From Marinobacter adhaerens HP15 (GTDB lineage: Bacteria > Pseudomonadota > Gammaproteobacteria > Pseudomonadales > Oleiphilaceae), in the NCBI RefSeq assembly GCF_000166295.1, contig NC_017506.1:2728001-2792000 (forward strand): a stretch of 64,000 bases of DNA, in the 5' to 3' direction. Of the stretch, positions 16,594 to 34,710 are shown one piece after another. The notes beneath the pieces were generated by a model, which worked only from the letters and a program-made list of their open reading frames with translations, ran no database searches and had not been told where the DNA came from. Position 1 is the first letter of the stretch. Each line of letters opens with the position of its first letter. The position numbers and the translations under genes were made by a program.

Positions 16594-16623
16594 ATTGCCA
16601 CCCGGTTAGGGCCGGGTGGCAAT
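16594..16623. terminator. Hairpin between convergent genes
   Basis: ATTGCCACCCGG (16594-16605) and CCGGGTGGCAAT (16612-16623) form a perfect 12-base stem around the loop TTAGGG. Neither strand has a U-tract after it, so termination may be inefficient or Rho-assisted. The right half is also the last coding segment of the minus-strand Rid gene. Confidence 0.55.
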
Positions 16624-16998
16624 CACATCCAGCTCAACCATCAATTCTGGCAGGGCCAGTGCGGACACACCGACCGTCGTATCTGCAGGCCAGGGTTTGT
16701 CAAAGTAGCGTTCCCGCATCTTTATAACGCTTTCAAAGTTATTCATGTCTGTAAGGTATACAGTGATCTTGAAAATGCGATCGACGCCCGACCCTACGGC
16801 ATTCAGTGCCCGCTCAATATTCGCCATTGCCTGATCAATCTGGGCATCAATATCCCCCGGGCCAACGACGCCCCCAATCTGATCAATCGCTGCTTGGCCC
16901 GACAGAAATATCAGATTTCCCACACAGTGGCCTTGGCCAATGAAGAAATGTTCAAAGGGGTCGGGGTCAAGGTGGACCGGTTCTGTACCTATTGCCAT
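16606..16998 (-). CDS. Rid (YjgF/YER057c/UK114) family protein lacking the catalytic arginine
   Basis: A 130-residue chorismate-mutase-like fold protein. RidA members hydrolyse reactive enamines and imines formed during amino-acid or heterocycle metabolism. GQGHCVGNLIFLSGQAAID and KITVYLTDMNNFESV fit the family. At the position of the RidA catalytic arginine (PARS.V.V) this protein reads PADTTVGV, so classical imine deaminase activity is doubtful; it belongs to another Rid subgroup. The start at 16998 has GGAG seven bases upstream and gives the normal family length; an upstream ATG at 17043 would overlap the regulator gene. It is the last gene of the 14-gene minus-strand block, directly after the activator gene. 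Confidence 0.85.
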   Translation of the reverse strand: MAIGTEPVHLDPDPFEHFFIGQGHCVGNLIFLSGQAAIDQIGGVVGPGDIDAQIDQAMANIERALNAVGSGVDRIFKITVYLTDMNNFESVIKMRERYFDKPWPADTTVGVSALALPELMVELDVIATRP

Positions 16999-16999
16999 A

Positions 17000-18904
17000 T
17001 TATTCTCCGGATTGATCGTTACCCACTGCCCGGGGATCGGCACTCATCTGTTTCAATCGACGCCAGAGTGTGGTCTGGCTGATGCCGAGGTACTCCGCAG
17101 CTTTGGTCTTGTTGCCCCCGAAGCGACCAAGCACCTTAAGGATTTCCTCCTGCTCGACGGACTGCAGGTGACAGCCCTCGGTTAACCCGGATTGGCCCAG
17201 ATCTGTCAACTCGAACAACTCCGGGGCCAAGCTTTGAAGATGGGACGCGAACTGTTCCGTTGATGAATAAAGCGTGGACGACACCAGCAAACGCTCCATC
17301 AGATTTTCCAGCTGGCGAACATTGCCAGGCCAACCATATCGCCTGAATCGGGGAACCAAGACCTCGGCCAAGGCATTTTCATCGGCATCAATTCCGTACT
17401 GCCTGCCGAGTGACTGGATAAAGTGGCGGGTCAGGGGTTCAATATCGTCTGGCCTCTCACGTAGTGGCGGCAGATTCACTATGAACACGTTGAGCCGGTA
17501 GTAAAGATCTTCCCGAAACCGACCAGCTCGAACCTCCTCCAGCAGATCGTGGTTACATGCAGCGACAAACTTGATGTTGAGAGCTATGGACCTTCGCGAG
17601 CCGACCGGCCGGACTTCCCGCTCTTGCAGCACCCTCAGAAGTTTAGCCTGCTGCGGCAAAGGCAAAGAGTTGATTTCGTCCATGAAAAAGGTGCCGTTGT
17701 TGGCGGTTTCCAGCAACCCGGATTTGCCACCACTACGCGAGCTTGTAAAAGCGCCATCGGCATAACCAAACAATTCTGACTCAAAGAGCTCACTGGGAAT
17801 AGCGGCACAGTTGATAGCAACAAAAGGTCCCTCTTTGTTGGCGCTGGAGTCGTGAATCATTCTCGCCGCAAGCTCCTTACCAGTCCCGGTTTCACCTCTA
17901 AGCAAAACTGCGCCCGGAGTAGCGCCGTAAACTTGAAGAAAGTGCGCGACCTCCGCCATGCGACCAGACTCATAAATAAGCCCGCTGGTCTTACCTTCAG
18001 ATCCAGACTTGCTCTGCGGCGCCGCGGTTAAGGCATAAAGGTGCCCCACTCGCACACCATCGACTTCAAAGGCGCTCTTCTGAACCCGACACAGCCGATC
18101 TCCCACTTGAATGCCCTCGGCAACCGTATCTGGTGTTTGCAGAAACCGGCTATCCAAAAACCGATCAATGCGTTTGTTGCGAGCTAGTCCCTTCACCAGA
18201 CCCAGAGCACTTCGATTAAATCCAATGATCTGTTCGTCCCGGTTGGTGATGATGGTTGGACTGCTTGCGCTATCCATAAGGAACTGCACAAACGCTCGGC
18301 GTTCGCCTTCGCGCTTGTGCTCTCCGGCCACAGAGATCGCCTTTCGGACCATGTAACGGCAGGATTCCCTCGAATACACCATGACAAACGGCAGGCCTTC
18401 CTGCTCAGCCAGGTCACAGATAAAGCTGGAGCCGATCACCACACCAATACCGTCTTTCTCTACACCGTGGAAGGTTTCCCGGGCCTCTTCTGCAGTCTTA
18501 TAGGTGCGATGAACAATGTCGACACCTTCCACGTAATCGAGAAACTCAGTCCAGGTGCTCTGGTGTTCATAGGTCAGCAGAAGAATCTTGTTGCTGATCT
18601 GGCGGGCCTTGAGTACGGCATTGACCAAATCGGATTGCCTGAGCTCCAGTGCCACGACCGGCACCGGCAAGGTGTCCTTCAGATAGTGCGCATTCGCTCC
18701 GGCGCTAATGAACACATCCACCGCGTCATGCTCGACCAGACGCCGCGCAGACATGAGGGCATCGTTGAAGATGCTGTCGATGATGACGATCTCAGCGATG
18801 GATTGGAATTCCGGAATCAGGGAGTGAACCATCTTGCTGAGCTTGGAGTTGCCGATCAGGCACAACTTAACTCGATCTGCTTCGGCGTTATTGAACTCCA
18901 TCAT
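17000..18904 (-). CDS. PrpR-type sigma-54-dependent enhancer-binding regulator
   Basis: A 634-residue activator. Residues 10-195 form a PrpR_N sensor domain, which in PrpR senses 2-methylcitrate. A PAS-like segment follows (about 200-290). The AAA+ domain has Walker A GETGTGKE at 337-344, a modified sigma-54 contact loop GAFTSS at 384-389 (canonical GAFTGA) and Walker B NGTFFMDEI at 403-411. A Fis-type helix-turn-helix is at about 595-620 (NKTKAAEYLGISQTTLWRRL). It lies between leuD and the Rid gene, all in one direction. Since a sigma-54 promoter with upstream palindromes heads this block at 34508-34662, it is the obvious candidate regulator of the block. The ligand is unknown; a branched di- or tricarboxylate is a fair guess from the PrpR_N domain. 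Confidence 0.9.
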   Translation of the reverse strand: MMEFNNAEADRVKLCLIGNSKLSKMVHSLIPEFQSIAEIVIIDSIFNDALMSARRLVEHDAVDVFISAGANAHYLKDTLPVPVVALELRQSDLVNAVLKARQISNKILLLTYEHQSTWTEFLDYVEGVDIVHRTYKTAEEARETFHGVEKDGIGVVIGSSFICDLAEQEGLPFVMVYSRESCRYMVRKAISVAGEHKREGERRAFVQFLMDSASSPTIITNRDEQIIGFNRSALGLVKGLARNKRIDRFLDSRFLQTPDTVAEGIQVGDRLCRVQKSAFEVDGVRVGHLYALTAAPQSKSGSEGKTSGLIYESGRMAEVAHFLQVYGATPGAVLLRGETGTGKELAARMIHDSSANKEGPFVAINCAAIPSELFESELFGYADGAFTSSRSGGKSGLLETANNGTFFMDEINSLPLPQQAKLLRVLQEREVRPVGSRRSIALNIKFVAACNHDLLEEVRAGRFREDLYYRLNVFIVNLPPLRERPDDIEPLTRHFIQSLGRQYGIDADENALAEVLVPRFRRYGWPGNVRQLENLMERLLVSSTLYSSTEQFASHLQSLAPELFELTDLGQSGLTEGCHLQSVEQEEILKVLGRFGGNKTKAAEYLGISQTTLWRRLKQMSADPRAVGNDQSGE

Positions 18905-18922
18905 CCCCTCCTCAATCCGGTT

Positions 18923-19558
18923 CTACTCAAAAAGCCAGGGTTCCAGGGTTCTTCGGTTCGCCTCGTAGGCCTGAATGGAGCCTGAAAAAGTCAGGGTACG
19001 ACCTATCTCATCCAGACCGCTGAGGAGGTTCTCCCGCCGACCCGACTCAACCACGAAACGCCAGGTCTTCTTCGGACTGCGAATCTCGCATTGCTCCAAA
19101 TCCACCGTCAGTTCCAGACCGTCCGTGTCACTGGCCAAATTGAACAATTCGTCAATGGTTGACTCGTCGAGTATTACCGGAAGCAGGCCATTGTTAAAGC
19201 AGTTGTTAAAGAAAATATCCCCAAAACTGCTGGCAATAACCGCTCGAACGCCAAAGTCCTTCAGGGCCCAGACCGCGTGTTCCCGGGATGACCCACAGCC
19301 AAAGTTTGCCCTGGCCAGCAGGATGGAAGCACGGTCGTAGGGCGCCCGGTTCAGAATGAAGTCGGGATCCGGTCTGCGCTCCGACACGGGGATGTCCACA
19401 TCACCGGGGTCCAGATATCGCTCATCATCAAAGAGGAAGTCTGCAAACCCGGTTTTCTCCAGCATTTTAAGATACTGCTTGGGCAGAATTGCGTCGGTGT
19501 CCACATTCGACCGGTCGAAAGGAACGACCAGACCGGTGTGTGTTTTGAATGCCTCCAT
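18923..19558 (-). CDS. leuD: Isopropylmalate-isomerase-type dehydratase, small subunit
   Basis: A 211-residue aconitase-superfamily small subunit that pairs with LeuC. It has DRSNVDTDAILPKQYLK near the N-terminus and the substrate-recognition segment ANFGCGSSREHAVWAL at about 85-100. Sequence alone says LeuD-like. No leuB follows; the next gene is a PrpR-type activator, and the genes before leuC belong to a catabolic set. It may therefore hydrate or dehydrate another branched dicarboxylate (citraconate- or dimethylmaleate-like substrates are known for LeuCD relatives) rather than serve leucine synthesis. Confidence 0.85.
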   Translation of the reverse strand: MEAFKTHTGLVVPFDRSNVDTDAILPKQYLKMLEKTGFADFLFDDERYLDPGDVDIPVSERRPDPDFILNRAPYDRASILLARANFGCGSSREHAVWALKDFGVRAVIASSFGDIFFNNCFNNGLLPVILDESTIDELFNLASDTDGLELTVDLEQCEIRSPKKTWRFVVESGRRENLLSGLDEIGRTLTFSGSIQAYEANRRTLEPWLFE

Positions 19559-19559
19559 C

Positions 19560-20969
19560 CTATACCTCCCTCACATCGGTGATTTCGCCCGCCAACGCAG
19601 CCGCAGCGGCCATCAGCGGACTCATCAGATGAGTCCGACCACCCTTGCCCTGCCTGCCTTCAAAGTTCCTGTTAGAAGTGGAGGCACAGCGCTCGCCAGG
19701 GTTAAGCCGATCATCATTCATACCGAGGCACATTGAGCATCCCGCCGCCCGCCACTCGAAACCAGCATTTCGAAAAATCATATCCAGACCTTCCCGCTCT
19801 GCCTGCAGGCGAACCTGGCCAGACCCTGGAACAATCAGAGCCTGTTTCACCGACCGGTGCACTTTCTGTCCCTGCACCAGATTAGCGACGGCTCTCAAGT
19901 CCTCCATGCGGGCATTGGTGCAAGAACCAATGAAAACCTTGTCGATTGACAACCCCTTCAGGGGGCGCCCGGGCTCAAGCCCCATGTAGTCCAGAGCCCG
20001 CCTGGCCGATTCCCGCTTCTCCGGCGCCAGCTGAGAAAGATCCGGGGTTTTGCCATCAATACCGGTGACCATCTCTGGGGATGTGCCCCAGGTTACCTGC
20101 GGCACCAGGGCTTCCAGCGGAAAATGCTCCTCGCGATCAAAATCTGCCTCCGCATCCGAAACCAACGTGCGCCAATACTCACGAGCCTGCTCCAGGCGCT
20201 CGCCAACTGGCGCCTGGGGTCTGCCCTCCACGTATTGTTCCGTCACCCGGTCATAAGCAACCATGCCTGCCCGGGCACCGGCTTCAATGCTCATGTTGCA
20301 GATGGTCATGCGCCCCTCCATGGACAGGTTACGAATGGCTGCACCGGCGTATTCAATGGCATATCCGTTGCCGCCAGCGGTCCCTATACGCCCAATCAGC
20401 GCCAGAATCAGGTCTTTTGGGGTCACCCCGAAACCTGGCTGACCTTCGAACACCACTCGCATGTTTTTCTGTTTCTGGGTCCGCAGGGTCTGGGTGGCCA
20501 GCACATGCTCCACCTCGCTGGTACCGATTCCCATGGCGAGCGTCGCGAAAGCGCCGTGAGTGGAGGTATGAGAGTCGCCGCAAACGATGGTCATGCCCGG
20601 CAAGGTCAGGCCCTGCTCCGGACCCACCACGTGTACGATCCCTTGCCGGGCATCTTCCAGTTCAATCAACGGAATACCGAATTCCTCGCAATTACGCGAC
20701 AGGGTTTCCACCTGTTTTCGCGCAACACGGTCGGCAATACCTGCGACGCCGAGTTCCCGTTTCCGGGTTGGTACGGCATGATCGGGCACCGCTACATTGG
20801 CCGGAATTCGCCAGGGCTTTCGACCAGCCGAGCGCAGACCGGAAAAAGCCTGGGGCGTGGTCACTTCGTGCAGCAAATGACGGTCGATGTAGAGCAACGC
20901 GGAACCGTCAGGCAGTTCATCCACCAGGTGGCGCTGCCAGAGTTTGTCGTAGAGCGTACGCGCAGCCAT
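19560..20969 (-). CDS. leuC: Isopropylmalate-isomerase-type dehydratase, large subunit
   Basis: A 469-residue 4Fe-4S aconitase-family protein. [21 protein letters not shown] at about 130-150, the cluster cysteine in [13 protein letters not shown] near 348 and the pair in [11 protein letters not shown] near 410 are all intact. Overall it is very close to standard LeuC. One base separates it from leuD. Upstream is a small lipoprotein gene and then the hydantoinase/amidase genes, all co-directional. Whether this is the only LeuCD of the genome or a catabolic paralogue cannot be decided from the window; the neighbourhood favours a paralogue. Confidence 0.88.
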
Positions 20970-20983
20970 GTTTGTTGTCCTCG

Positions 20984-21445
20984 TTATTGGCGTTGCACCG
21001 CAGCCTGAACGGTCTCCCAGTCAAGCCATTGATAGAGTTCCTCACCCCTGTCGGCATCCAGACGATAGCCGCACCAGGTTTCGAGCTTACCTTCCTGAAG
21101 CGGTTCGATGATGCAGTAAGGGCGAGCGCAGTCAGGTTCGCTTAATCCCGCCGCCAGCAGACGTTCACGGGCCTGACTGAGCTGCCGCGCGGCCTCTGCC
21201 TGGCCAGCCTGATCTGACTGCGCCAAAGCGCTGACGTTCTCCCGAAATCCACGCACATAGGCTTCGCGGTAGGTTTGGCAGGCCTGCGGATCGGATGAGA
21301 GTCGTTCCAGAAACGCCTGCCGGTTACTGCCGATTTCCTGGCCGGCGGGTGTTGCCGCACACCCTACGAGGAGGGCCAAATATGCGGCCATCACCGCTCT
21401 AGTCAAGAAACGCAAGCAATTCGCTGAGAGACATAACGTCCGCAT
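20984..21445 (-). CDS. Small predicted lipoprotein of unknown function
   Basis: An N-terminal hydrophobic stretch ends in the lipobox-like LLVGC followed by AATPAGQ, so the mature protein of about 125 residues is probably lipid-anchored. Its body is rich in Gln, Arg, Glu and Ala with a helical look, and it has Cys pairs ([20 protein letters not shown]) that could form disulfides in the periplasm. The start is uncertain: the ATG at 21445 has a GGGGA-like ribosome-binding site and a charged n-region but overlaps the upstream gene by 47 bases; a TTG at 21406 and an ATG at 21391 are alternatives. I do not recognise the family. It lies between the amidase gene and leuC. Confidence 0.6.
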
Positions 21446-21989
21446 ATTTGATCCCCAGATCCCGCAGGTTCGCTTCGTGGGCGTCAGGATCCCTGTCTCC
21501 GACCGCTTCCCGCGGGATCAGGGTCCGATAGTTATGCTGAAGGCTGTCCAGCGCCGTGGCCCGCACACAGCCACTGGTTGTCAGACCCGTAACCACCGTT
21601 CCGTCCACGCCAGCGGCCTTGAGCCGGTCATCCAGATCGGTACCAAAAAATCCGCTGGCCCAGTGTTTTACGAGGACCGGCTCGTCGCTCCGGGGTTGCA
21701 GTCTTGAGTCCATCTCCACGAGCCCGGAACCGGCTTCCAGTACGTTGAGTGCCGGCAGTTTCTCCCGGAATACCGAAGCCTGGGACGGCTCCGAATACGC
21801 GACGGTGGTGAAAAACACCGGCCAGCCGCGTTCCCGGAAACGTTCAAGCAACACCCGGTTGGCTTCAACCACGTCGTCAGACTCGGACGCCAAAGGGCTC
21901 TGTGACGGGTCGGTAAAGCCGACGCTGAGATCCACGAGGATCAGCGCATAGCGCTGTCCCCGTTTCAGCACGTTGGATGACAGGGCCAT
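21399..21989 (-). CDS. Isochorismatase-fold cysteine amidohydrolase
   Basis: A 196-residue cysteine hydrolase. The catalytic triad is visible as Asp20 (LILVDLSVGF), Lys108 (LVKHWASGFFGT) and Cys141 (TTSGCVRATA). Relatives with this KHWxSGFxGT pattern include N-carbamoylsarcosine amidohydrolase and maleamate amidohydrolase, which hydrolyse carbamoyl or half-amide groups. The start at 21989 sits in a TGATG overlap with hyuB, which argues for coupled expression and a shared pathway: a HyuAB-type ring opening followed by amide hydrolysis. The precise substrate is not deducible. Confidence 0.88.
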   Translation of the reverse strand: MALSSNVLKRGQRYALILVDLSVGFTDPSQSPLASESDDVVEANRVLLERFRERGWPVFFTTVAYSEPSQASVFREKLPALNVLEAGSGLVEMDSRLQPRSDEPVLVKHWASGFFGTDLDDRLKAAGVDGTVVTGLTTSGCVRATALDSLQHNYRTLIPREAVGDRDPDAHEANLRDLGIKYADVMSLSELLAFLD

Positions 21990-23860
21990 CAGTGCACCCC
22001 TGCGGTGTTCCAAACCGGCGTTGCCGGCGCGGGCAATCCCGTCTCAGCTTCACAACGAGCCTTGATCTGCTCGATGGTGCCACCCCTTGAGAACAGAGCG
22101 TCGTTATCACGACTGCCGGCCATCTCTGTACGCAAGGCCTCGGTGGCCGACTGGTCAATGGCGCCTTTAGCATCCAGGACCACACCATAGCGACGGGCAC
22201 CGTCAACGCTGATCAGCCCTTTCACCACGTCGGTTGCCACTGCCGCCGGATCCCGCTCCAGGGGGTTGCCCCAACCGCCGCCACCCCAGGTGTCAAAGAC
22301 AACGAGATCGCCTTTTTCCACCTTGATATGGTCGCACTTGGAGGGCAGTACCCGGCGTTCGCCATTTGCCTTCACCAATTCCTTCCGACTGCGCATCCCG
22401 GGGTCGCCTCCGTTAACGCCCCAAGGGTAGGTCAACCAGCGATCATCGTGGATGGAAATTTCTCCGTCTGCCAGCAAGCGATACCCTACACGGATGCCGT
22501 TGCCGCCGCGGTGTTTGCCCGCACCACCGGAATCAATGATGGTTTCATAGGTTTCGATGCGGAGCGGGAAGTAAGCCTCCACGAATTCGTTGGGCACGTT
22601 GGTAAAGCCGGGCCAAAGACTGTGGCCATCCGGGCCATCGCCGACCGGCCGGCCAGGAATACCACCGAAACCGATCTGGAAGAGCTGGAACCACTCGCCC
22701 TTGTCATCGTAGCCGGAGTACATGAAGTGCGGAGAATCAGAGAATCCCGCGGCACTCATGGCATCCGGCGTGCCCTGACCCAGCAGCCCGCCCATCACGT
22801 CGAAAATGCGACCGAGCAGGTGAGTCCGGCAAGACAGCGCCGCCGGGAAATTCGGCTTGAGAATACTACCCTGGGGAATCCGAACCTCCACCAGATCGTA
22901 GAAGCCATCGTTGAACAGGATCGACGGGTCAAACAGGTTGATGGTAAAGGCACCGAAGAACATCTTGAACATCTCCTCGTTGAGGTAGAAGTTCACTGAG
23001 GACGGAGCCTGGGGGTCGGTACCCTCGAAATCAAAAATCGCTTTGTCACCTTCACGCCACATGGTGCAACGGATGGTATAGGGCCCAAGACCAGCGCCGT
23101 CGTCACAGATGTAGTCTTCAAACGAGCGCTTGTCCTCGGGCACCACGTTGCGGATGATTTCCCGCATCGCGATATAGTTACGCTCCAGCATCATGCCAAG
23201 GGCACTGCTGAAGATGTCGTCACCGAATCGCTGGGCAAGCTCTACGCAGCGGCGTCCGGCGGTGCGGCAGGAAGCGACGATGGCGTTGAAATCCGAGCGG
23301 TTCCAGCGCGGCATCCGCACGTTATGGAGGATCAATTCCAGCACATCGTGGTTCAGCTCGCCCTTCTTGTAGATCTTCACGGGCGGGATGCGAATCCCCT
23401 CCTCGAAGATGGTCTGGGCGTCGGTGGGCAGACTACCCGGTACCTTGCCGCCAACGTCCGACATATGGCCGAACATGGCAGCCCAGTTAATCAGGCGGCC
23501 GTCCTTGAACACCGGGACCAGCACCAGCCAGTCCGGCAGGTGGCTCACTGCCCCGTCACACATGTAGGGGTCATTGGTGAGGAAGATGTCGCCTTCCTCG
23601 ATATCGCCGTTGTAGGACTGGATGAAGCCTGTGATGAAAGAGCCGAACTGCCCTACCACCATCTTGCCCTCGTGATTGGCAATCATCGGAAAAGCATCAC
23701 CCTGCTCCCGGATGCCCGGGGACATGGCGGTCCGAAACAGGACTGCATCCATCTCATTGCGGGCGTTCGCCATGGCGTTCTCGATGATGTCGAGTGTCAC
23801 GGTATCCACGTCGACCTTTTGCAACGGGGTGCTGTTTGGCTGAATGATATTCGCAGGCAT
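21989..23860 (-). CDS. hyuB: Hydantoinase B/oxoprolinase-family subunit
   Basis: A 623-residue beta subunit of an ATP-dependent hydantoinase, lactamase or carboxylase family enzyme (N-methylhydantoinase, oxoprolinase, caprolactamase, acetophenone carboxylase). Family features include SPGIREQGDAFPMI, FLTNDPYMCDGAVSHLPD (metal-binding Asp/His region) and HRGGNGIRVGYRLLADGE (metal site and subunit interface). The start at 23860 has AAGGAG at good spacing and follows the hyuA stop by 4 bases. No acetone-carboxylase-like third subunit is nearby, which favours amide-ring hydrolysis over carboxylation. Confidence 0.9.
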   Translation of the reverse strand: MPANIIQPNSTPLQKVDVDTVTLDIIENAMANARNEMDAVLFRTAMSPGIREQGDAFPMIANHEGKMVVGQFGSFITGFIQSYNGDIEEGDIFLTNDPYMCDGAVSHLPDWLVLVPVFKDGRLINWAAMFGHMSDVGGKVPGSLPTDAQTIFEEGIRIPPVKIYKKGELNHDVLELILHNVRMPRWNRSDFNAIVASCRTAGRRCVELAQRFGDDIFSSALGMMLERNYIAMREIIRNVVPEDKRSFEDYICDDGAGLGPYTIRCTMWREGDKAIFDFEGTDPQAPSSVNFYLNEEMFKMFFGAFTINLFDPSILFNDGFYDLVEVRIPQGSILKPNFPAALSCRTHLLGRIFDVMGGLLGQGTPDAMSAAGFSDSPHFMYSGYDDKGEWFQLFQIGFGGIPGRPVGDGPDGHSLWPGFTNVPNEFVEAYFPLRIETYETIIDSGGAGKHRGGNGIRVGYRLLADGEISIHDDRWLTYPWGVNGGDPGMRSRKELVKANGERRVLPSKCDHIKVEKGDLVVFDTWGGGGWGNPLERDPAAVATDVVKGLISVDGARRYGVVLDAKGAIDQSATEALRTEMAGSRDNDALFSRGGTIEQIKARCEAETGLPAPATPVWNTAGVH

Positions 23861-23864
23861 ACGA

Positions 23865-25937: not shown

Positions 25938-25977
25938 AGGTGTCTCCTGACTGTTCTATATCGGGTTTGGGCCGGCT

Positions 25978-27243: not shown

Positions 27244-27262
27244 TGTTACTCTCCTCATATGC

Positions 27263-28933
27263 TCAGAACTGGTAGGTCAACCGCGCAAGCAGTTGATCGT
27301 TGCCGGAGAAGTACCCGAACAGGTTCGTATCGTTGAAGCCCTGAAGAGGGCGTTCCTGATCCTTCTCGTGGAAGAAGATGTCCGCCTCCAGGCGCACACG
27401 GATGTGGTCGCCATAGGCCAGCTCGACCGCCGGAATAACAAAGCCACCGCCATAGGTCAGGTCCGAGCCAATGGCGAGGGAAGGGTTGATCTGGTCGTTG
27501 GCGTAGTTGGTGGCAAGCACCGCGGTGATGATGCTGCTGAATTCCTCGGTCTCGCCGCCGAAGCCGGCAAGGTTGACCAGTTGCTCTTCTTTCTCGTAGT
27601 CGGTAATCCAGTTGTTAAACAGCTGAACAGTGAAGAAGGATGGGCGGCTGGTACCCAGCACGTCCTGCAGATCCAGCTGCTTGTCGATCCGGAACATGGA
27701 CCGGAACAGCTTCTTCTCTTCAATTCCACAGAAGCCCGGGAAGAAACCACATCCGGGCCCTTCGGCGATGCTCTCGATGCCCACGTTGTAGGGAGCATTC
27801 GGTATGTAGGCCAGTTCAGTACTGAACACCAGGTCCGGACCCGCGAAGTAGTTGTTGGCGGTTACGCCAAAGACATCAATGAACGGATAGATGAACTCAC
27901 CGGCCTCGGTGGCACCGCCTTCATACACGCCCTCGTAGGGGCCGGTCTGCAACTGCGGCTGACCCGGATTGGTGGCGGGGTTCGGATTCACAACAGGATT
28001 AGGGTTGGGACCCCGGAACCACCCGACCGAGTATCCCCAGTCACCGGCCAGACCGCTCCAACGCAGACCGAAGGAGTCGTCATCCATATCGGCGTCCGGA
28101 TGGTCGTAGTTATACTTCACGTTGGCACCAAACGGGGCAGAGGCAAAGGTGATGCCCTTGTTCGGATTGTTAGCCCAGCGGCCGCCTTCCACGTCGTAAC
28201 TGTTGCCCCTGTCTTCGCCATCATTAAGTTTTCCGGGGATGTACAGCACCTGCAGGCTGCCATCGAGGTCGTAGAACTGCTGGGTCAGGTTGACCATGTT
28301 GAGCGGTTTGCGAAGCTCCTCGTTTTCCGGTTCCAGGAAGGAGCGCCAGCGGAAGTCGTAGCCGTGCACCACATCCAGCAATTGGAAGAAGTCCGTTTCG
28401 CCCCAAACCACCTGCTGGCGACCCACCTTGATGTTGGTGGAATCGGTAAGGTCACCCTGCACCCAGAATTCCCGGAGTTCCTCGTCGTCGTAGACGTCAT
28501 CGCGTAGGTTAACGCTGGAGCCTGCAGCACCACCGGTAGCCGCCCATTCATCCATGACATCCTGAAGATCTTTACCGTAGTCAGTAGGCGATTCACGGGA
28601 AATCCGGCCAGTTATCTTGGTCCGCCAGTTGCCGAAGTCACGGTACAGATCGAGCTTTCCAACGGTGCGCGCCATGGACAGGTCGTAGCGATAGTCGTCC
28701 CTCTGCTCACCGTCCGGGCCGATCAATGTCGGATTCTCGAGGTTCCAGGACAGGTACTGGCGAATGTAACCGCTGACCTCCCAGTCCTTGGTGAGCCAGT
28801 CTTCCTCGGCCGAAGCTATCTGAGGCACACTCACCGACGCTGCCAGCACAGCACTGGCCAGAAGGCCTCGCTGCCAGGGACGGTGAATCGAGGTTGAGTT
28901 TTTGTTGTCTCTCTTCATTTTGGTACCCATCAT
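27263..28933 (-). CDS. DUF1302 outer-membrane beta-barrel-like protein
   Basis: A 556-residue protein with a long signal sequence (cleavage ASA/EED near residue 42), alternating beta-strand pattern and a terminal phenylalanine (LLARLTYQF), as in outer-membrane barrels. WVQGDLTDSTNIKVGRQQVV and EFWV-type strands are typical of the family. Residues about 309-326 form an unusual Asn-Pro repeat (GPNPNPVVNPNPATNP), probably an exposed loop. The start overlaps the RND gene stop (TGATG); a second ATG at 28918 (MKRDNKN) is also possible. It likely forms the outer-membrane part of an uptake or export path with the RND and DUF1329 proteins. Confidence 0.87.
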   Translation of the reverse strand: MMGTKMKRDNKNSTSIHRPWQRGLLASAVLAASVSVPQIASAEEDWLTKDWEVSGYIRQYLSWNLENPTLIGPDGEQRDDYRYDLSMARTVGKLDLYRDFGNWRTKITGRISRESPTDYGKDLQDVMDEWAATGGAAGSSVNLRDDVYDDEELREFWVQGDLTDSTNIKVGRQQVVWGETDFFQLLDVVHGYDFRWRSFLEPENEELRKPLNMVNLTQQFYDLDGSLQVLYIPGKLNDGEDRGNSYDVEGGRWANNPNKGITFASAPFGANVKYNYDHPDADMDDDSFGLRWSGLAGDWGYSVGWFRGPNPNPVVNPNPATNPGQPQLQTGPYEGVYEGGATEAGEFIYPFIDVFGVTANNYFAGPDLVFSTELAYIPNAPYNVGIESIAEGPGCGFFPGFCGIEEKKLFRSMFRIDKQLDLQDVLGTSRPSFFTVQLFNNWITDYEKEEQLVNLAGFGGETEEFSSIITAVLATNYANDQINPSLAIGSDLTYGGGFVIPAVELAYGDHIRVRLEADIFFHEKDQERPLQGFNDTNLFGYFSGNDQLLARLTYQF

Positions 28934-31323
28934 CAGTGAGTGGATTGCGCCAGCCGTTCCATACCTTGATCGGATTCGGCCTTTACTGGGCGGTCACCGA
29001 AGATGAACTTCGGCTTCAACACCCGAACCAGGGATGGCATCACGAACAGCGAAGTGAACGCTGAAACGAGCAGCCACAGCCCAATTAAGGTGCCCATCTC
29101 CGCCTGGAATCGCAGCGAAGACAGGGACCAGAACAAAACGCCGGCCGCAAGGGTCACAGACGTGAGGAGCACGCCGCGGCCGGCAGAAAACAGGGATTGG
29201 CGAATAGCATCCATGGGGTCTGCCCCGGGATCTTTTTCCAGGTATTCCTTCACCGAATCGACGATGTAAAACGCGTAGTCCACGCCCAGACCAATCCCGA
29301 GGGCGACGACAGGCAGAGTGCTGATACTCATGCCGATGCCTTGCCAGGCCATGAAGGCAAAGGTCACCACGTTGGAGATCAGCACCGGAACAATGAAAAA
29401 GATGCCGCTGGCCGACGAGCGGTAAACGGCAAGGCAGGAAAGGATGACCACCAAAAGCGCCAGAGCGATGGCCTCGATCTGATCGGACAGCAGGATTTCG
29501 TTGACCGCGGCAATAATTCCCAGGGAACCACCCGCCAGACGCACATCCACGCCTTCGAGGGGATTTTCCTCAATGTACCGACGGATCTGGTAGGTGGCGT
29601 GACGCAGGGTCTCGCCCTGACGGTCCCGGAAGAACAGGATCACCGAGCCGTTCTGGAACAGCGGGTCGGCGAACTGGGCGAGATCGTCCGGCGCAGCCCC
29701 CTGCATGTAGAAGCTGATCAGTTCGCCATTTTCCAGTTGGGTAGCGCCCAGCTCCCGGTACCGGGGGTTGCCCTCGTACAGGTTGCGGCGCACGTCCACC
29801 ACAATGTCAGCCAGTGAGACACTGCCTCCCACTGAGGGCAGGCGTTCCATACGGCGCTGGAAACCCTGCATCCAGGCCAGGACATCCGGGCGCTTGAGCG
29901 CGTCCTCCTTCTCGCCCTCCAGCACCACGAACATCTGCTCGGTGCCCGGGTAATTGGCGTTGATCAGGGCACTGTCCCGGTTGAACTGGGAATCTTCCCA
30001 AAGGATGGGGGAACCGGTGGTCGCGTCGCCAATGGTCAGATCGGTGGCCTTGAACACAAGAGCGGCAACAAGTATCAGTGTGACTGGAAGGACGAAGAAC
30101 CTGGCCCGGGTTTCGACCACTTTCACGGCCACAGACAGCACGGCATTCAGGAGGAAGCGCAGGTTCAGTGGGTGGGCATTGCGCAGGGGCGCCTTGACCC
30201 AGCTCAGCAGCACTGGCGTGAGAATCACGGCAGAGAAGCCGATGGTCATCACCCAGATCGCACCGATGATCGACACCTTCTGCAGCAGCGGAATGGGTGT
30301 GAGCACCACACACAGGATGGCACCGGCATCGGACACCAGCCCCAGCAGACCGGGACGGAACAGTTCCTTCATGGTCTGCTCGGCGGCCTTTCGCGGCTCC
30401 ACACCCTCGCCGTCGCAGAGGTCGTCAAACCGGGTGATTAACTGCACTGCATGGCTGAAGCAGCGCGCGGTGATGATGAACGCCACCACAATCACCAGTG
30501 GATCGAAGTTGAAGCCCAGCAGAACCCCGATACCCAGGGCCCAGATGGTAGACACCACGCCACTGAGTAGAGGCAGCAGGGTGCCGCGCCAAGTGCGGTT
30601 CAGCAGGAACAGGGCAAACAGCATGGCGCCTAGGGAGATCAGGGCAATGGAGACAGTCTCATCCAGGTAGAAGTCGACCCAACCATAGAGAATAGGCTCC
30701 CCCACCACATGATGCGTTACCTGATCGGCCACCGGGGAGGCATCCAGAATCCCCTGGACCTGCGGGAAAATCTTGCTGTAGTCCACCAGATGGTCATAGA
30801 AATCCATCTGAATCAGAGTCGAGGACAGGTCGGGCTCGACGTAGATTCCGTAAACCAGCGGGTTGTTGATGATGGCCTCGCGAAGGGCCTCAATGCCGGC
30901 ATCGGATTCCGGGACATCCGGCCACATCAGCGGTACGCTCTCGATACCCATCGACGAAGCACTGACGGACTTGAGCTTGCGGGAAGCAAGAGATACTACC
31001 TGGAACGGGTTAACGCCGCTCACCTTTGCCAACTCCCGGGTAATCCGTTTAACTTCCTCAAGGATCGGCTGGGTCATGATATCGCCGTCACGGGCCTGGA
31101 CCAGGATCGACACCTTGTTGCTGCCGCCGAAGGTATCCTTGTAGGTCTCATGCACGTCCACGTATTCATGGTCGCTTGGCACCATATCGCTGAATACGGT
31201 TCGTACGTCGATCTTCAGCAGGGTCAGTGCCATTAACAGAGTGGACACGAAGATAATGGCAGTCACCCAAACACGGTGACGGATGCAGAATTCGGAGAGG
31301 GAACGGGCAAATGCACTGATCAT
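28933..31323 (-). CDS. MMPL/RND-superfamily inner-membrane transporter
   Basis: A 796-residue protein with one helix at about 20-40, a long periplasmic domain, then helices in two repeated sets (about 12 in total), as in hopanoid/lipid RND exporters. Landmarks are VALGIGLGVDYAFYIVDSVKE and LLSGVVSTIWALGIGVLLG. Such proteins usually move lipids or hydrophobic molecules using the proton gradient. The start at 31323 follows the YCF48 gene stop by 2 bases with GGGGGA upstream; the ATG at 31356 would begin inside that gene. Neighbouring DUF1302, DUF1329 and YCF48 genes form its usual companion set. Confidence 0.88.
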   Translation of the reverse strand: MISAFARSLSEFCIRHRVWVTAIIFVSTLLMALTLLKIDVRTVFSDMVPSDHEYVDVHETYKDTFGGSNKVSILVQARDGDIMTQPILEEVKRITRELAKVSGVNPFQVVSLASRKLKSVSASSMGIESVPLMWPDVPESDAGIEALREAIINNPLVYGIYVEPDLSSTLIQMDFYDHLVDYSKIFPQVQGILDASPVADQVTHHVVGEPILYGWVDFYLDETVSIALISLGAMLFALFLLNRTWRGTLLPLLSGVVSTIWALGIGVLLGFNFDPLVIVVAFIITARCFSHAVQLITRFDDLCDGEGVEPRKAAEQTMKELFRPGLLGLVSDAGAILCVVLTPIPLLQKVSIIGAIWVMTIGFSAVILTPVLLSWVKAPLRNAHPLNLRFLLNAVLSVAVKVVETRARFFVLPVTLILVAALVFKATDLTIGDATTGSPILWEDSQFNRDSALINANYPGTEQMFVVLEGEKEDALKRPDVLAWMQGFQRRMERLPSVGGSVSLADIVVDVRRNLYEGNPRYRELGATQLENGELISFYMQGAAPDDLAQFADPLFQNGSVILFFRDRQGETLRHATYQIRRYIEENPLEGVDVRLAGGSLGIIAAVNEILLSDQIEAIALALLVVILSCLAVYRSSASGIFFIVPVLISNVVTFAFMAWQGIGMSISTLPVVALGIGLGVDYAFYIVDSVKEYLEKDPGADPMDAIRQSLFSAGRGVLLTSVTLAAGVLFWSLSSLRFQAEMGTLIGLWLLVSAFTSLFVMPSLVRVLKPKFIFGDRPVKAESDQGMERLAQSTH

Positions 31324-31325
31324 GA

Positions 31326-32315
31326 TCAGATTCCCCCTGCCATGGCATCCGGCCAAGTCTGCCAGCTGTCATCAGAAAGCAGTCCAATCGTCTGGCCCGC
31401 GATCAGTACACCATTCTTTACAGGCTCCAGGCGTGCGTGGTATCCGTTGGCAAAGTTACCAGGCTGGAGCGCCTGCCACCGAGTTCCGTCCTCTGAGCTA
31501 AGCAGCACCCCGCCATTGCCGGTGGCGAGCCAGCGTTGGCTGTCGTGAATCACGTCGTAGAGATGCTCCGTAGTCGGTGAAGGGGTCTTTTCCCAGGTCT
31601 GGCCGCCGTCGACGCTGCGGAATATCACGCCGCCATTGCCAACAATCACGCCGTCATTGCCATGGAAGGCCACCGAACGCAGGCTTTCGTAGCCCAGTTC
31701 TTCGCCCTGCCAGGACTGACCGTTATCCCGGGAGTGATAGAGAGTGCCAAATTCAGCGGTAATCCAGAGTTCGCCGGCTTCAGTCCGGGCAATATCGTTG
31801 AGGGCAACGTCACCTTCGATACTGAGGTTCTGCCACTGGTTCGCCTGGGCGTCGGAGCGGAACACTGCACCCATCTCGCCAATGGCCCAGAAATGACCGT
31901 CAAGCCAGGCCACTTCTATCAATTTACCGGCAATGTCGGACACCGGTAACTGCAACGGCTCCCACTCGCCATCGCCATGATGACGGAAAGTCCAGCCAGC
32001 ATTCCCCACCGCCAGCACGGTACCGTTATCATCGGCAGCAATACCCTGGAGGTTCACGTTTTCGGGCATCACATGCCGATGCCAGTCCTCAAGGGTTTCT
32101 CCAGCTTCCAGCACTAGGCCGTTGTTGCCAGCGAACCAGTACCGGCCAGCTTCCGAGGCGCTGACGTCATAGAACAGATCCCGCGGTTCGTTCAGTGGCT
32201 GAGGCAGAGGCAGAGGTTCCACACCGGGCTTGATAAAAGCCGCGGCGTAGGCCAGGCCACCAACGATGGCCCAGGGCGCCAGCTGCGCGGTAATCCCAAG
32301 CACCTTAGCCAACAT
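31326..32315 (-). CDS. YCF48/BNR-repeat beta-propeller protein, membrane anchored
   Basis: A 329-residue protein beginning with a hydrophobic helix (LGITAQLAPWAIVGGLAYAA), followed by repeated beta-propeller blades: FAGNNGLVLEAGETLEDWH, AVGNAGWTFRHHGDGEWEP, EFGTLYHSRDNGQSWQ, GNGGVIFRSVDGGQTWEK and GNGGVLLSSEDGTRWQ. These Asp-box-like repeats resemble photosystem II assembly factor YCF48. It is a common partner of MMPL transporters next to DUF1302/1329. The start at 32315 overlaps the end of the HMGL gene by 11 bases and has GGGGAGG upstream. Confidence 0.85.
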   Translation of the reverse strand: MLAKVLGITAQLAPWAIVGGLAYAAAFIKPGVEPLPLPQPLNEPRDLFYDVSASEAGRYWFAGNNGLVLEAGETLEDWHRHVMPENVNLQGIAADDNGTVLAVGNAGWTFRHHGDGEWEPLQLPVSDIAGKLIEVAWLDGHFWAIGEMGAVFRSDAQANQWQNLSIEGDVALNDIARTEAGELWITAEFGTLYHSRDNGQSWQGEELGYESLRSVAFHGNDGVIVGNGGVIFRSVDGGQTWEKTPSPTTEHLYDVIHDSQRWLATGNGGVLLSSEDGTRWQALQPGNFANGYHARLEPVKNGVLIAGQTIGLLSDDSWQTWPDAMAGGI

Positions 32316-33228
32316 GACCGGCCTCCCCGAGCAGCTTGGCACGCTGCTGGCTCAACCAGCGAAAGCTCTTGCCACCGAGGGGCACGCCCGTGAGCTCTTC
32401 GGCCAGGTGAACCAGAGGCACCAGATCCAGCGGATCAATACCGGTGTCATGGCCCATACTGTTGAGCAGGAGTACCACATCCTCCGTGGCGACATTGCCG
32501 GTCGCGCCCGGTGAGAAAGGGCAACCGCCGAGACCGCCGATGGAGGAATCGAATTCACAAACACCCCGATCCACCGCCACTGTGATATTGGCGAGGGCCA
32601 TGCCCCGGGTATCGTGGAAGTGGCAGGAAAGTCGGTCTGCCCCAACTTCCGGAACCACGAGGTCCAGAACCTGACGGACCTGGGTCGGGTTGGCAGCACC
32701 AATGGTATCGGCGATGATAATTTTGGCGGCTCCGGCCGAATGCATCAGCCGCGCATATCGGGCAACGACCTCCGGATCAACCAGACCTTCGAAGGGACAT
32801 TCAAAGGCAACCGCCAGATAGGCCTGCACCTCGACCCCTTCCAGATGCCCGCGTTCCACAATGGCTTTGCATACATCAGCAGTCTCATCCAGGGACATCC
32901 GAATATTTTTCTGATTCATGGTATCGGTAACCGACAGAACCACGTTGACAACCTTTGCGCCGGCGGCGGTGGCCAGCTGGTAACCCTTCATATTGGGCAC
33001 CAGCCCTGCATAGCGAACCTTGTCGCTCGCTGGCAGACGGCTGAAAAGTTCGTCGGTGCCCGCCATTTGCGGAACCGCTTTCGGGGAAACGAAACTGCCG
33101 GCTTCAATATTTCTCAGCCCGGCACCCACAAGCGCCTCGATCAACTGCGCCCTGGCGTCCACACTCAATGTCTTGCCCTGGCTCTGTAAGCCGTCGCGGG
33201 GTCCGACGTCGTTGACACGCACCTTCAT
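32305..33228 (-). CDS. HMG-CoA lyase-family (HMGL-like) enzyme
   Basis: A 307-residue TIM-barrel lyase. It carries DVGPRDGLQSQ at the N-terminus (catalytic Arg-Asp), CHFHDTRGMALAN (metal-binding His) and the signature cysteine loop GGLGGCPFSPGATGNVATED near residue 230. Enzymes of this group cleave 3-hydroxy-3-methylglutaryl-CoA, or a related 3-hydroxyacyl-CoA, into acetyl-CoA and a keto acid. AAGGAGG precedes the ATG at 33228; the open frame to 33282 overlaps the CoA-transferase. With the adjacent CaiB protein it makes a likely activation-and-cleavage pair for a branched hydroxy-dicarboxylate. Confidence 0.88.
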   Translation of the reverse strand: MKVRVNDVGPRDGLQSQGKTLSVDARAQLIEALVGAGLRNIEAGSFVSPKAVPQMAGTDELFSRLPASDKVRYAGLVPNMKGYQLATAAGAKVVNVVLSVTDTMNQKNIRMSLDETADVCKAIVERGHLEGVEVQAYLAVAFECPFEGLVDPEVVARYARLMHSAGAAKIIIADTIGAANPTQVRQVLDLVVPEVGADRLSCHFHDTRGMALANITVAVDRGVCEFDSSIGGLGGCPFSPGATGNVATEDVVLLLNSMGHDTGIDPLDLVPLVHLAEELTGVPLGGKSFRWLSQQRAKLLGEAGHVG

Positions 33229-33238
33229 GGCTGCCTCC

Positions 33239-34435
33239 TTATCCGATGGCCTGCATGGCTTTGAGTTCTGCAATCCGCTCATCGCTATAGCCCAGGGACT
33301 TCAGGACATCCTCGGTGTGCTGGCCCAGCAGGGGCGGCGCGGTGTAGGAATCTGAAGAGTCGACGCTGAGCTTGATCGGGTTGCCCGGCGCCTTGACGGT
33401 GCCACCATCGAACTGGGGAATATCCACCACCATGTTGCGGAACAACACTTGGGGGTCGCTAAGGGCATCGGAGAACTTGTTGACCGGAGCACACGGAATG
33501 CGGGCGCTGGAGAGCAGCTCCACCCAGTGTTCGGTGGTGTTGGTCTTGAGCAGATCGGTAAGGATGCCGTTGATCTTGTGTTTGTCGGCAAATCGCCCGG
33601 GCTGAGTTTTGTAGGCTGGATCCCGCAGCTCATCAATGCCCAAAAGCTCCACCAAGTTGTCCCAGAAGCTGTCGAAGATCACCGCAATAATTACGAAGCC
33701 GTTGCTGGTGCGGAAGGCATCGTAGGGCACATGGACAAAATGACCGTTCCCGATCGGAGACGGATTATCGCCGCTGAGGAAATACATTGTTGCCATGTAG
33801 TTGAGCATGCTGATCTGGCAGTCGAGCATGGAAATGTCCACATGCTGTCCGTAGCCGTTGACCGCGCGGGAATGTAAGGCCGCCAGGACCCCCATCACCG
33901 CAAACATGCCTCCACCAAGGTCGCCAATGGGTATACCAGCCCGGGCCGGATGTTCAGCATCATGTCCGGTGATCGACATGCCGCCACCAATACCCTGGAC
34001 CACCTGATCAAATGCCGGGCGCTTGAAATTGGGCCCGGCCTGCCCGAATCCAGTTACCGAACAGGTAATGATGCGAGGATTCACCCTCGATAGATGCTCG
34101 TGATCAATCTTGAGCTTCGCTGGCACGCCGGCGGAGAAGTTATCAAGCACGATGTCGGCGTCTTTGACCAAATCATAGAAGGTCTGTAGACCAGCCTCGG
34201 ACTTCAGATCAATGCAGACACTCTTCTTGTTGCGATTGAGGGTAATGAAGTAGGCGCCGTGACCGTTGTAGGAATTGCGGGGATCCTTGGCAAGTAATGA
34301 GCGGGTGCCTTCGCCTTTCAGGGGCTCTACCTTGATGGATTCTGCTCCCATGTCGGCCAGCAGCATTCCTGCGTAAGGGCCGGACAGCATATGGGTCAGA
34401 TCGATTATCCGGACGCCTTCCAGTGGTTTAGTCAT
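33239..34435 (-). CDS. CaiB/BaiF family (class III) CoA-transferase
   Basis: A 398-residue CoA-transferase. The N-terminus LEGVRIIDLTHMLSGPYAG and catalytic Asp172 in IPIGDLGGG are typical; the family transfers CoA between carboxylates through an aspartyl-CoA anhydride. Members act on glutarate, 3-hydroxy-3-methylglutarate, itaconate, oxalate and carnitine. It is the first gene after the sigma-54 promoter, 10 bases ahead of the HMG-CoA-lyase-like gene, which supports a role in activating a branched dicarboxylate for lyase cleavage. Confidence 0.88.
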   Translation of the reverse strand: MTKPLEGVRIIDLTHMLSGPYAGMLLADMGAESIKVEPLKGEGTRSLLAKDPRNSYNGHGAYFITLNRNKKSVCIDLKSEAGLQTFYDLVKDADIVLDNFSAGVPAKLKIDHEHLSRVNPRIITCSVTGFGQAGPNFKRPAFDQVVQGIGGGMSITGHDAEHPARAGIPIGDLGGGMFAVMGVLAALHSRAVNGYGQHVDISMLDCQISMLNYMATMYFLSGDNPSPIGNGHFVHVPYDAFRTSNGFVIIAVIFDSFWDNLVELLGIDELRDPAYKTQPGRFADKHKINGILTDLLKTNTTEHWVELLSSARIPCAPVNKFSDALSDPQVLFRNMVVDIPQFDGGTVKAPGNPIKLSVDSSDSYTAPPLLGQHTEDVLKSLGYSDERIAELKAMQAIG

Positions 34436-34507
34436 AGTCAGTCAGCACACGGTTGTTGGATTGATGTTGTTGTTCATCAACAGGACGAACCTTTTACATC
34501 CACCATC

Positions 34508-34523
34508 GCAAAGCCGGTGCCAA
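34508..34523 (-). promoter_or_regulatory. Sigma-54 (-24/-12) promoter heading the 14-gene block
   Basis: Read on the minus strand the site is TTGGCACCGGCTTTGC: the -24 box TGGCAC (34522-34517), five bases, then the -12 box TTGC (34511-34508). This fits the sigma-54 consensus TGGCACR-N4-TTGCW almost perfectly. The expected start of transcription is near 34497, about 60 bases before the CoA-transferase ATG. The only sigma-54 activator gene in the window is the PrpR-type gene within this same block. Confidence 0.8.
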
Positions 34524-34563: not shown

Positions 34564-34619
34564 ATTAGGTATTATTTCGTAGGTAGAAACACGTAACGGA
34601 GGGTTATCGGATGAAGAAA

Positions 34620-34662
34620 AACCATTTCATTTTGAAATCCTTTAATTCAAAGTGAAATGGTT
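34620..34662. promoter_or_regulatory. Paired palindromes: candidate activator-binding sites (or dadA terminator)
   Basis: Two tandem palindromes of the form ATTTCA-N3-TGAAAT lie at 34624-34638 (perfect) and 34644-34658 (one mismatch), with centres 20 bases apart, close to two helical turns. Together they also form one larger inverted repeat (34620-34636 with 34646-34662, 16 of 17 matches). They lie about 145 bases upstream of the predicted sigma-54 start, a normal enhancer distance. Alternative reading: on the minus strand the AT-rich hairpin is followed by TTTTTCTT and stands about 50 bases after the dadA stop, so it could instead terminate dadA. Both roles are possible at once. Confidence 0.55.
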
Positions 34663-34710
34663 TGGGGCTTGACCGAGATGCTCGCACCGGACTGGAGGTA
34701 GCCAGACCTT

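Follow-up and report, generated by a model that had tools for sequence, protein, structure and literature searches.

A conserved sigma-54-linked catabolic operon in Marinobacter adhaerens HP15, a candidate for cyclic imide degradation

A 14-gene block and its promoter site

In the 4.65-Mb genome of Marinobacter adhaerens HP15 we analyzed a stretch of 64,000 nucleotides (the window; NCBI RefSeq assembly GCF_000166295.1, contig NC_017506.1, positions 2,728,001 to 2,792,000) and found in it a block of 14 open reading frames (ORFs), a conserved operon with a link to sigma-54 that belongs to a widespread and modular catabolic type. All 14 ORFs lie on the minus strand, running from 34435 to 16606 with intergenic gaps of -47 to +40 bp (Table 1). 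An earlier interpretation made from the letters of the window (the sequence-only reading) had proposed a co-directional block of these genes; all were present in the proposed order, and Pfam agrees with the named families for 13 of them. The fourteenth, a putative lipoprotein of 153 amino acids, has no Pfam match. It carries a hydrophobic N-terminus, a Cys that is invariant in 10 of 10 aligned sequences (window included) and further conserved Cys residues, and its structural model (mean predicted local distance difference test score, pLDDT, 88) has no PDB match at E <= 0.001. Because the listed frames are the longest ORFs, the true starts of HyuB, the amidase, the RND transporter and the Rid protein probably lie a few codons inward.

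To place the block among its relatives, an alignment of HyuB was scanned against genome contigs, giving at least 578 confirmed matches, of which the best 80 were analyzed as loci with up to 10 kb on each side of HyuB; several end at contig ends. Gene presence was scored by tblastn at E <= 1e-10, so that paralogues are counted too. Labels beginning with L denote loci and those with G genomes, C being a contig of a genome. We call the 16 of 80 loci that hold both the RND transporter and DUF1302 RND-type.

A -24/-12 site upstream of the CoA-transferase gene (34523-34507) was the sole one to score at least 15 in a scan that covered 15 gene starts and reached up to 200 bp from each. Across the window, counts of two sigma-54 patterns fell below the shuffle mean (7 versus 13.4 and 2 versus 3.9), so the case for a promoter rests on position and conservation. 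Among 13 RND-type loci compared, window included, 12 have a site scoring at least 14 of 17 (15 or 16 in 11), starting 58 to 123 bp before the first gene; in the thirteenth, from Rhodanobacter (L138), no sigma-54 site turned up in the upstream sequence scanned (at most 400 bp). Random 150-bp pieces of the loci score at least 14 in 2.6% of cases and at least 15 in 0.57%, a null drawn from pieces shorter than the promoter scan (up to 400 bp), and the 13 loci are mutually related, so the tests are not independent. Relatives with a TonB receptor also have sigma-54 sites before the first gene of several operons.

The unit encodes a matching activator, with a PrpR_N sensor, a sigma-54 AAA+ domain and a Fis-type helix-turn-helix. 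It shares these domains with the propionate activator PrpR but misses the TIGR02329 equivalog cut-off (463.9 versus 499.2 bits), and the block holds no prp genes; we therefore call it PrpR-like only. With a positioned, conserved site before the first gene and a sigma-54 activator within the unit, the sigma-54 control proposed in the sequence-only reading is supported. By pattern, TGAAA-N-TTTCA palindromes lie upstream of the promoter in 6 of the 13 loci, the window not being among them; its longer inverted repeat (34663-34619) could stand in place of such a palindrome, or could instead terminate the upstream gene.

Table 1. Features of the block and its upstream region, in window coordinates and transcription order of the genes
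Feature	Position	Strand	Evidence or remark
Inverted repeat AAACCATTTCA / TGAAATGGTTT	34619..34663	-	candidate activator site, or terminator of upstream DAO gene
Sigma-54 -24/-12 site TTGGCACC-N4-TTGCG	34507..34523	-	5' end 88 bp upstream of first ATG
CoAT, family III CoA-transferase	33239..34435	-	PF02515, E = 1e-117
HMGL, HMG-CoA-lyase-family lyase	32305..33282	-	PF00682; NF004283 above cut-off
YCF48-like propeller, AmeC-like, transport quartet	31326..32342	-	PF14870
MMPL/RND transporter, AmeD-like	28933..31356	-	PF03176
DUF1302 outer-membrane protein, AmeA-like	27263..28933	-	PF06980
DUF1329 periplasmic LolA-like protein, AmeB-like	25978..27258	-	PF07044
HyuA, ATP-dependent hydantoinase/oxoprolinase subunit A	23865..25937	-	PF01968, PF05378
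HyuB, hydantoinase/oxoprolinase subunit B	21989..23896	-	PF02538; tree
Iso, isochorismatase-fold amidase, motif GLTTSGCVRAT	21399..22013	-	PF00857
Small putative lipoprotein	20984..21445	-	no Pfam match; seen only in loci of RND type or from Marinobacter
LeuC-type hydratase large subunit, paralogue of LeuC near leuB	19560..20969	-	PF00330
LeuD-type hydratase small subunit	18923..19558	-	PF00694
PrpR-like sigma-54 activator, PrpR_N sensor	17000..18904	-	PF06506, PF00158, PF02954
Rid/L-PSP family protein; likelier start ATG at 16998	16606..17043	-	PF01042; similar gene in 6 of 16 RND-type loci

Conservation and modularity of the unit

Every one of the 16 RND-type loci also holds YCF48, DUF1329, HyuA, HyuB, LeuC and LeuD. 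CoAT and HMGL occur in 15, the exception being a locus that ends there (L042) and in whose genome (G069) both genes adjoin the block; Iso is found in 15, with L077 lacking a match at threshold, and a PrpR match in all 16, short in L032 and L041. The lipoprotein is present in 12 and Rid in 6. The sequence-only reading had offered itself for rejection should related genomes keep the catabolic half, the transporter half and LeuCD with PrpR always apart. It withstood this genome comparison, since the quartet, HyuAB and LeuCD stand together in 16 of 16 RND-type loci. RND, DUF1302 and DUF1329 are absent from all 64 remaining loci, and one 14.7-kb locus (L026) has YCF48 only of the quartet.

Hosts of RND-type loci are Marinobacter, Vreelandella, Alloalcanivorax, Pseudomonas, Halopseudomonas, Dokdonella, Rhodanobacter, Methylonatrum, an Ectothiorhodospiraceae metagenome-assembled genome (MAG) and a proteobacterial MAG (L077). 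Among the best 80 of at least 578 HyuB matches, the nearest named relative in the block is Marinobacter santoriniensis. Within the window's genus the unit is patchy, HyuA being found at 90% or more in 2 of 36 other genomes searched. In a HyuB tree of 90 tips, from which matches with 400 or fewer aligned residues had been dropped, the RND type forms a single branch with the exception of L077. There (positions 1-21896) the gene order differs, and the quartet seems to have met the HyuAB of a different branch in a second, independent event.

Fifty-two loci are well-flanked, extending beyond 6 kb to either side of HyuB, and 36 of them lack the quartet. In these 36 we found matches to the CoAT family in 31, HMGL in 31 and Iso in 29, alongside a TonB receptor in 27, PrpR in 15, a GntR/UTRA regulator in 9 and LeuC in 12, the receptor and regulator queries being one of each identified in related loci. 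These counts indicate a stable core of CoAT, HMGL, HyuA, HyuB and Iso, in which uptake, regulator and LeuCD are exchangeable. The claim of one coherent system thus stands as a conserved sigma-54-linked unit, but a modular one rather than a single fixed system.

The quartet is of a described kind, which corrects the sequence-only reading of an undescribed catabolic and transport system in that part. Its four adjacent genes belong to the same families as AmeABCD of Castellaniella defragrans, described as DUF1302, DUF1329, a YCF48/COG4447-like protein and an HAE3 RND transporter in the available text of PMC6394551, and the set is complete in the 16 RND-type loci. For PP_0765/PP_0766/PP_2018/PP_2019 of Pseudomonas putida, the available text of PMC10866462 reports a functional link of DUF1302 and DUF1329 with a multidrug efflux transporter and a periplasmic protein, and ties this related set to Tween 20 use. 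Unlike either, the quartet of the window is embedded among ring-opening and CoA-lyase enzymes of a catabolic operon.

The block could be two neighbors: a catabolic operon and, set into it without a shared pathway, an AmeABCD-like envelope system that exports hydrophobic compounds or confers tolerance to them. The core lacks the quartet in 36 of 52 well-flanked loci, L077 appears to be an independent joining, and distance correlations among RND-type loci fall into two groups: 0.90-0.98 for HMGL with the quartet and 0.96 within HyuAB, but 0.65-0.78 between them, the lower values arising because Ectothiorhodospiraceae-type loci pair near HyuAB with far quartet genes. Against this, the quartet genes lie within the operon, flanked by HMGL and HyuA, and are complete in the 16 RND-type loci across several families, and the TonB receptor match in 27 of 36 quartet-less loci suggests uptake of the same kind of substrate. 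We consider an unrelated insertion quite improbable.

Two genes border the block. Upstream of the promoter lies a DadA/DAO-like FAD oxidoreductase gene (34711-35994); we excluded it from the block since it stands beyond the promoter and only fragments match it in G019 (L127), where, judging from these remnants, it may be decaying. An acyl-CoA synthetase gene (14942-16585) adjoins the other end convergently. A homologue follows the block in two Marinobacter loci (L027 and L082) and, among the loci listed, in Marinobacter only; this restricted association and its opposite strand exclude it as a member. In Vreelandella, the genes upstream of CoAT (an epimerase, a protease and glycosyltransferases) are unrelated.

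Several recurrent neighbors were seen in other loci. Upstream of CoAT, Halopseudomonas and Pseudomonas loci carry an Asp/Glu-racemase-family gene and a SnoaL-like gene, both with homologues in Rhodanobacter L138. An S-adenosylmethionine (SAM)-methyltransferase-domain protein of about 400 amino acids and a partner of about 120 lie beside or near HyuAB in L064, L065, L069, L072, L075, L079, L094, L102, L024 and L122; the one partner tested had no Pfam match. A glyoxalase-fold protein of about 135 amino acids is encoded just upstream of the PrpR-like gene in the TonB-type loci L043, L046, L047, L055, L063, L067, L073, L080, L085 and L088. Three HyuB matches contain one or two internal stop codons (G092 C15:3053-4897, G377 C41:304375-306249 and G647 C12:216454-218328), which may reflect decay, alignment overrun or sequencing error.

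A candidate pathway and competing readings

From the observed gene content, conservation, promoter site, separate LeuCD paralogue and module swaps we infer every substrate, every reaction and the direction of transport in what follows. We give about an even chance to the reading that the whole block is a single sigma-54-dependent operon for breaking down a cyclic imide with a substituted five-membered ring, an alkylated maleimide being the likeliest. The quartet would carry the compound over the envelope, or export it as proposed for AmeABCD. HyuAB would open the imide to a half-amide at the expense of ATP, the isochorismatase-fold amidase would yield an alkylmaleate, and LeuCD would hydrate this to an alkylmalate. 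The family III CoA-transferase could then form a CoA thioester, with CoA probably taken from succinyl-CoA, and the HMGL-family lyase would split it into a 2-oxo acid and an acyl-CoA by the chemistry of isopropylmalate or homocitrate synthase run in reverse. The PrpR-like activator might sense the alkylated hydroxy-acid intermediate and fire the sigma-54 promoter. On paper, hematinic acid would pass through methylated homoaconitate to 2-oxoglutarate and propionyl-CoA.

For the ring opener, the presence of HyuA and HyuB domains as a gene pair places it in the hydantoinase/oxoprolinase group. Its best NCBIfam models are CapA and CapB, and the caprolactamase CapAB, of the same superfamily, is likewise ATP-dependent in ring opening (PMC6061476, available text). 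HyuAB might thus act like caprolactamase on a hydrophobic lactam, with the amidase and LeuCD serving side-chain or later steps. The scores, 505 and 221.6 bits, lie far below the curated cut-off of 1000 in both cases, and lactam opening yields an amino acid, leaving no amide for the conserved amidase and no diacid for LeuCD; the available part of PMC6061476 describes no amidase with CapAB. Lactams, one of the guesses of the sequence-only reading, are highly improbable as the substrate.

The amidase carries the motif TTSGCVRA, whose Cys we take to be catalytic. Two PDB entries share the motif, 4l07 (118.9 bits) and 3ot4 (104.7 bits), which we take to be maleamate amidases: 3ot4/3uao as NicF and 4l07 as Ami. 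By contrast 1nba, the classical N-carbamoylsarcosine amidase, has TAAGCVRH. Among 65 Iso-labelled rows, 54 have TTSGC(V/I)RA, 8 another TSGC form, and 3 are truncated without the motif. The block amidase thus resembles NicF and Ami of aerobic nicotinate and nicotine degradation in fold and motif, but what follows in the block is LeuCD and CoA-dependent cleavage rather than a maleate isomerase.

LeuCD of the block is a separate paralogue. The same genome has a second LeuC, 67% identical, at C1:1933450, followed by a LeuD-sized frame and an isopropylmalate-dehydrogenase-family gene. In a tree of 45 LeuC sequences, 12 RND-type genomes have their block LeuCs in a single clade with support 0.99; for nine of these genomes the tree also includes the other LeuC, which falls outside it. 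Being neither the sole LeuCD nor in a leu operon, and in a separate clade, the block LeuCD is unlikely to serve leucine biosynthesis, and we rejected that role. At least two LeuC matches (E <= 1e-60) occur in 18 of 21 carriers searched, with one in G062, G068 and G073. Alteromonadales block LeuCs group with other Alteromonadales LeuCs, and those of L064/L065/L092, L068/L069 and L022/L091 are placed elsewhere. From this tree, LeuCD paralogues seem to have been recruited to this chemistry several times, which we read as a sign that a maleate-type hydration is needed.

Anaerobic nicotinate degradation ends with dimethylmaleate hydratase and 2,3-dimethylmalate lyase, and the sequence-only reading had compared LeuCD with this hydratase. 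The comparison gained support from a gene of the isocitrate lyase/phosphoenolpyruvate mutase (ICL/PEP-mutase) family that lies directly after Iso in three loci (L032, L033 and L041). The best PDB match of the L041 protein is the petal death protein 1zlp, which we assume to be a 2-alkyl/dialkylmalate lyase, and the next include methylisocitrate lyases and the 2,3-dimethylmalate lyase 3fa3. The block of the window shares the LeuCD-type hydratase with that pathway; unlike it, it has a CoA-transferase and an HMGL-type lyase in place of an ICL-type lyase, and HyuAB would open the nitrogen ring.

CoAT has a CaiB/BaiF domain and the conserved Asp, presumably the functional Asp of family III CoA-transferases, and is assigned to that family. 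Its best NCBIfam models, succinate-glutarate and succinyl-CoA:mesaconate CoA-transferase, are for dicarboxylates, which favors the imide reading; both score below cut-off. Since SUGCT (9br7) is a close relative of CoAT and HMGL scores 322 against an HMG-CoA-lyase subfamily cut-off (NF004283) of 246, the pair could act on a 3-hydroxy-3-alkylglutarate in the style of leucine or acyclic terpene degradation, with LeuCD on another branch. That route is very improbable: the 14 genes include no methylglutaconyl-CoA hydratase or acyl-CoA carboxylase, the core retains a ring opener and an amidase, and LeuCD-type enzymes act on maleate-type, not glutaconate-type, acids.

A second ring-opener family appears with the same downstream families. 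An Acidiphilium plasmid locus (L022) combines two PuuE-like proteins, members of the polysaccharide-deacetylase family, with CoAT, HMGL, an amidase and LeuCD; some 6 kb further on stand a second HMGL, CoAT, HyuA, HyuB and an amidase. In G551 (L176) an amidase, two PuuE-like proteins, HMGL, CoAT and LeuCD paralogues stand together, with HyuB 1.8 Mb away. Cyclic-imide hydrolases are known in the PuuE-type fold. Two unrelated ring-opener families with the same downstream families support HyuAB as an imide opener, a pattern that fits hydantoins too.

Several findings weigh against an imide substrate, some of them pointing to hydantoins: HyuAB would then be an ATP-dependent (N-methyl)hydantoinase, the amidase would remove the carbamoyl group, and the other genes would process the amino-acid carbon skeleton. 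The best PDB match of HyuA is the N-methylhydantoinase 7hk5 (476 bits), and that of the amidase is 26st (144.6 bits), named N-carbamoylsarcosine amidohydrolase and also carrying TTSGCVRA; together these matches keep the hydantoin interpretation alive. The PuuE-like proteins of the related islands score as relatives of allantoinase, and Halopseudomonas has an upstream gene of the Asp/Glu/hydantoin racemase family, to which Rhodanobacter and two Pseudomonas loci have homologues. Of a more general kind, the best PDB match of CoAT is named formyl-CoA transferase (10uh), ahead of SUGCT; HMGL is an ordinary member of its subfamily; the block LeuCs of G062 and G068 (Ectothiorhodospiraceae-type) and of L077 fall outside the RND-type clade; and in 24 of the 36 well-flanked loci that lack the quartet, no LeuCD was seen close to the core.

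A hydantoin substrate nevertheless gives no role to the recurrent LeuCD, the dialkylmalate-lyase-like gene or a dicarboxylate-type CoA-transferase. The unit has no amino-acid oxidase or aminotransferase, the DAO gene lying outside the promoter with fragments only in G019, and 1nba differs in the amidase motif. Creatinine degradation uses N-methylhydantoinase and N-carbamoylsarcosine amidase, and the block resembles it in that an ATP-dependent HyuAB-type opener adjoins an isochorismatase-fold amidase, but it lacks sarcosine oxidation and has LeuCD, a CoA-transferase and a lyase instead. On this evidence we regard a hydantoin as unlikely and prefer the cyclic imide.

A possible link to pyrrole pigments and its implications

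The sequence-only reading had also guessed at tetrapyrrole breakdown products. Genes of the CpeT/CpcT family (the bilin lyase family) lie 4.9 kb from HyuB in L089 and about 1.7 kb from it in L091/L115. CpeT occurs in 6 of 32 core-holding genomes, none of 14 RND-type (13 distinct if G019 and G058 are the same) and 6 of 18 others, and HapK, which we take to be a prodigiosin-cluster family, in 5 of 36. A class sample of 274 evenly drawn genomes contained CpeT in 2, the HyuB core (E <= 1e-180) in 5 including the own genome, and HapK in 4; leaving out the own genome, association with the core gave p = 0.03 for CpeT and 0.001 for HapK. In an order sample of 390 genomes CpeT was found in 7, the core in 31 and both in 6 (6 of 31 versus 1 of 359; one-sided Fisher p = 1e-6). 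These statistics ignore kinship, the six genomes with both in the order sample spanning five families. CpeT also occurs without the core (G097 and G466), as does HapK (G132 and G250).

Physical linkage is partial. Among 13 genomes with CpeT and the core, the two lie within 25 kb in 6 (G084, G083, G078, G329, G401 and G428), at long range on a single contig in two (G490 and G551), and on separate contigs in five (G070, G071, G081, G469 and G592); in 5 of those 7 unlinked genomes (not G071 or G592) CpeT still accompanies CoA-transferase, lyase, LeuC or PuuE-like genes. Of 14 rows scored for genes up to 15 kb from CpeT, 8 have CoAT-type genes, 6 HMGL-type, 5 LeuC and 5 HapK; the rows exclude copies 28% or less identical to the L114 copy (G097) as well as the linked G083 copy and the second G078 copy, which were not labelled CpeT. 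On one contig of G329, CpeT, the HyuB core and HapK fall within about 17 kb, with HMGL, CoAT and a short-chain dehydrogenase/reductase (SDR). In G466, CpeT lies beside CoAT, HMGL and LeuC with no core HyuB, and in G070 and G081 it is last in a run of HapK, SDR, PuuE-like, HpcH/HpaI lyase, mesaconyl-CoA-hydratase-like, acyl-CoA dehydrogenase and two CoA-transferase genes.

The L114 CpeT model (mean pLDDT 79; first 82 residues low) matches CpcT 4o4o (E 8e-13) and the phycocyanobilin-bound 4o4s (1e-12), and the protein has a second all-beta part and a lipobox-like N-terminus. The L089 protein had no PDB sequence match, and the fold match was obtained with the model of the L114 copy only; a CpcT fold alone is no proof of bilin binding. 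Islands with CpeT or HapK (L122 on G329 C141, L115, L120-L121, L113, L114 and L171-L180) also contain LeuCD, CoA-transferases, lyases, PuuE-like proteins, FAD oxidases and MDR reductases, and on this gene content they are a candidate bilin or oligopyrrole catabolic island of marine Gammaproteobacteria.

In the window's own branch the link was not seen: neither CpeT nor HapK was found in the window's genome or in any of 14 RND-type handles, in a search that did not include the genomes of L026, L027, L029, L035, L077 and L082. In 5 of 13 loci, from Alloalcanivorax and Pseudomonas/Halopseudomonas (L130-L133 and L135), a tandem pair of flavoenzymes of the old yellow enzyme (OYE)/2,4-dienoyl-CoA-reductase type lies directly upstream of CoAT. 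Bilirubin reductase (BilR) is defined by an HGDR motif in the available text of PMC10769871; the 10 aligned sequences of the pair have HGYL or HSYL, and we rejected them as bilirubin reductases. Taken with the limits of the CpeT and HapK association, this leaves a tetrapyrrole origin as a lead for the sister branch, which the enrichment backs indirectly, and a guess for the window.

Tentatively, and with more doubt than confidence, we propose that HyuAB, the amidase, LeuCD, the CoA-transferase and the lyase may be the missing bacterial route by which linear tetrapyrrole rings, together with oxidation products such as hematinic acid and methylvinyl- and methylethylmaleimide, are mineralized. 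In the sister branch this set would work alongside another ring-opening set based on PuuE, as well as HapK, redox enzymes and CpeT as a secreted, bilin-binding lipoprotein of CpcT fold, and the RND-linked operon of the window would be a variant that scavenges free alkylmaleimides left by heme and chlorophyll.

In open-licence literature, searched by titles and the starts of abstracts with most subscription journals outside its scope, we found no description of such a cluster and no paper on bacterial genes that return hematinic acid or alkylmaleimides to central metabolism. Chlorophyll turnover, both synthesis and breakdown, is on a scale of 10^12 kg per year, and the available text of PMC7318184 documents hematinic acid and alkylmaleimides as oxidation products of chlorophyll and heme. 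If the alkylmaleimide reading is true, the operon and its relatives would put names to enzymes of that step, open to testing, and would mark it in marine genomes. Should the substrate prove to be a different cyclic imide or a hydantoin, this is still a widespread catabolic operon for a pathway with no assignment in the papers searched.

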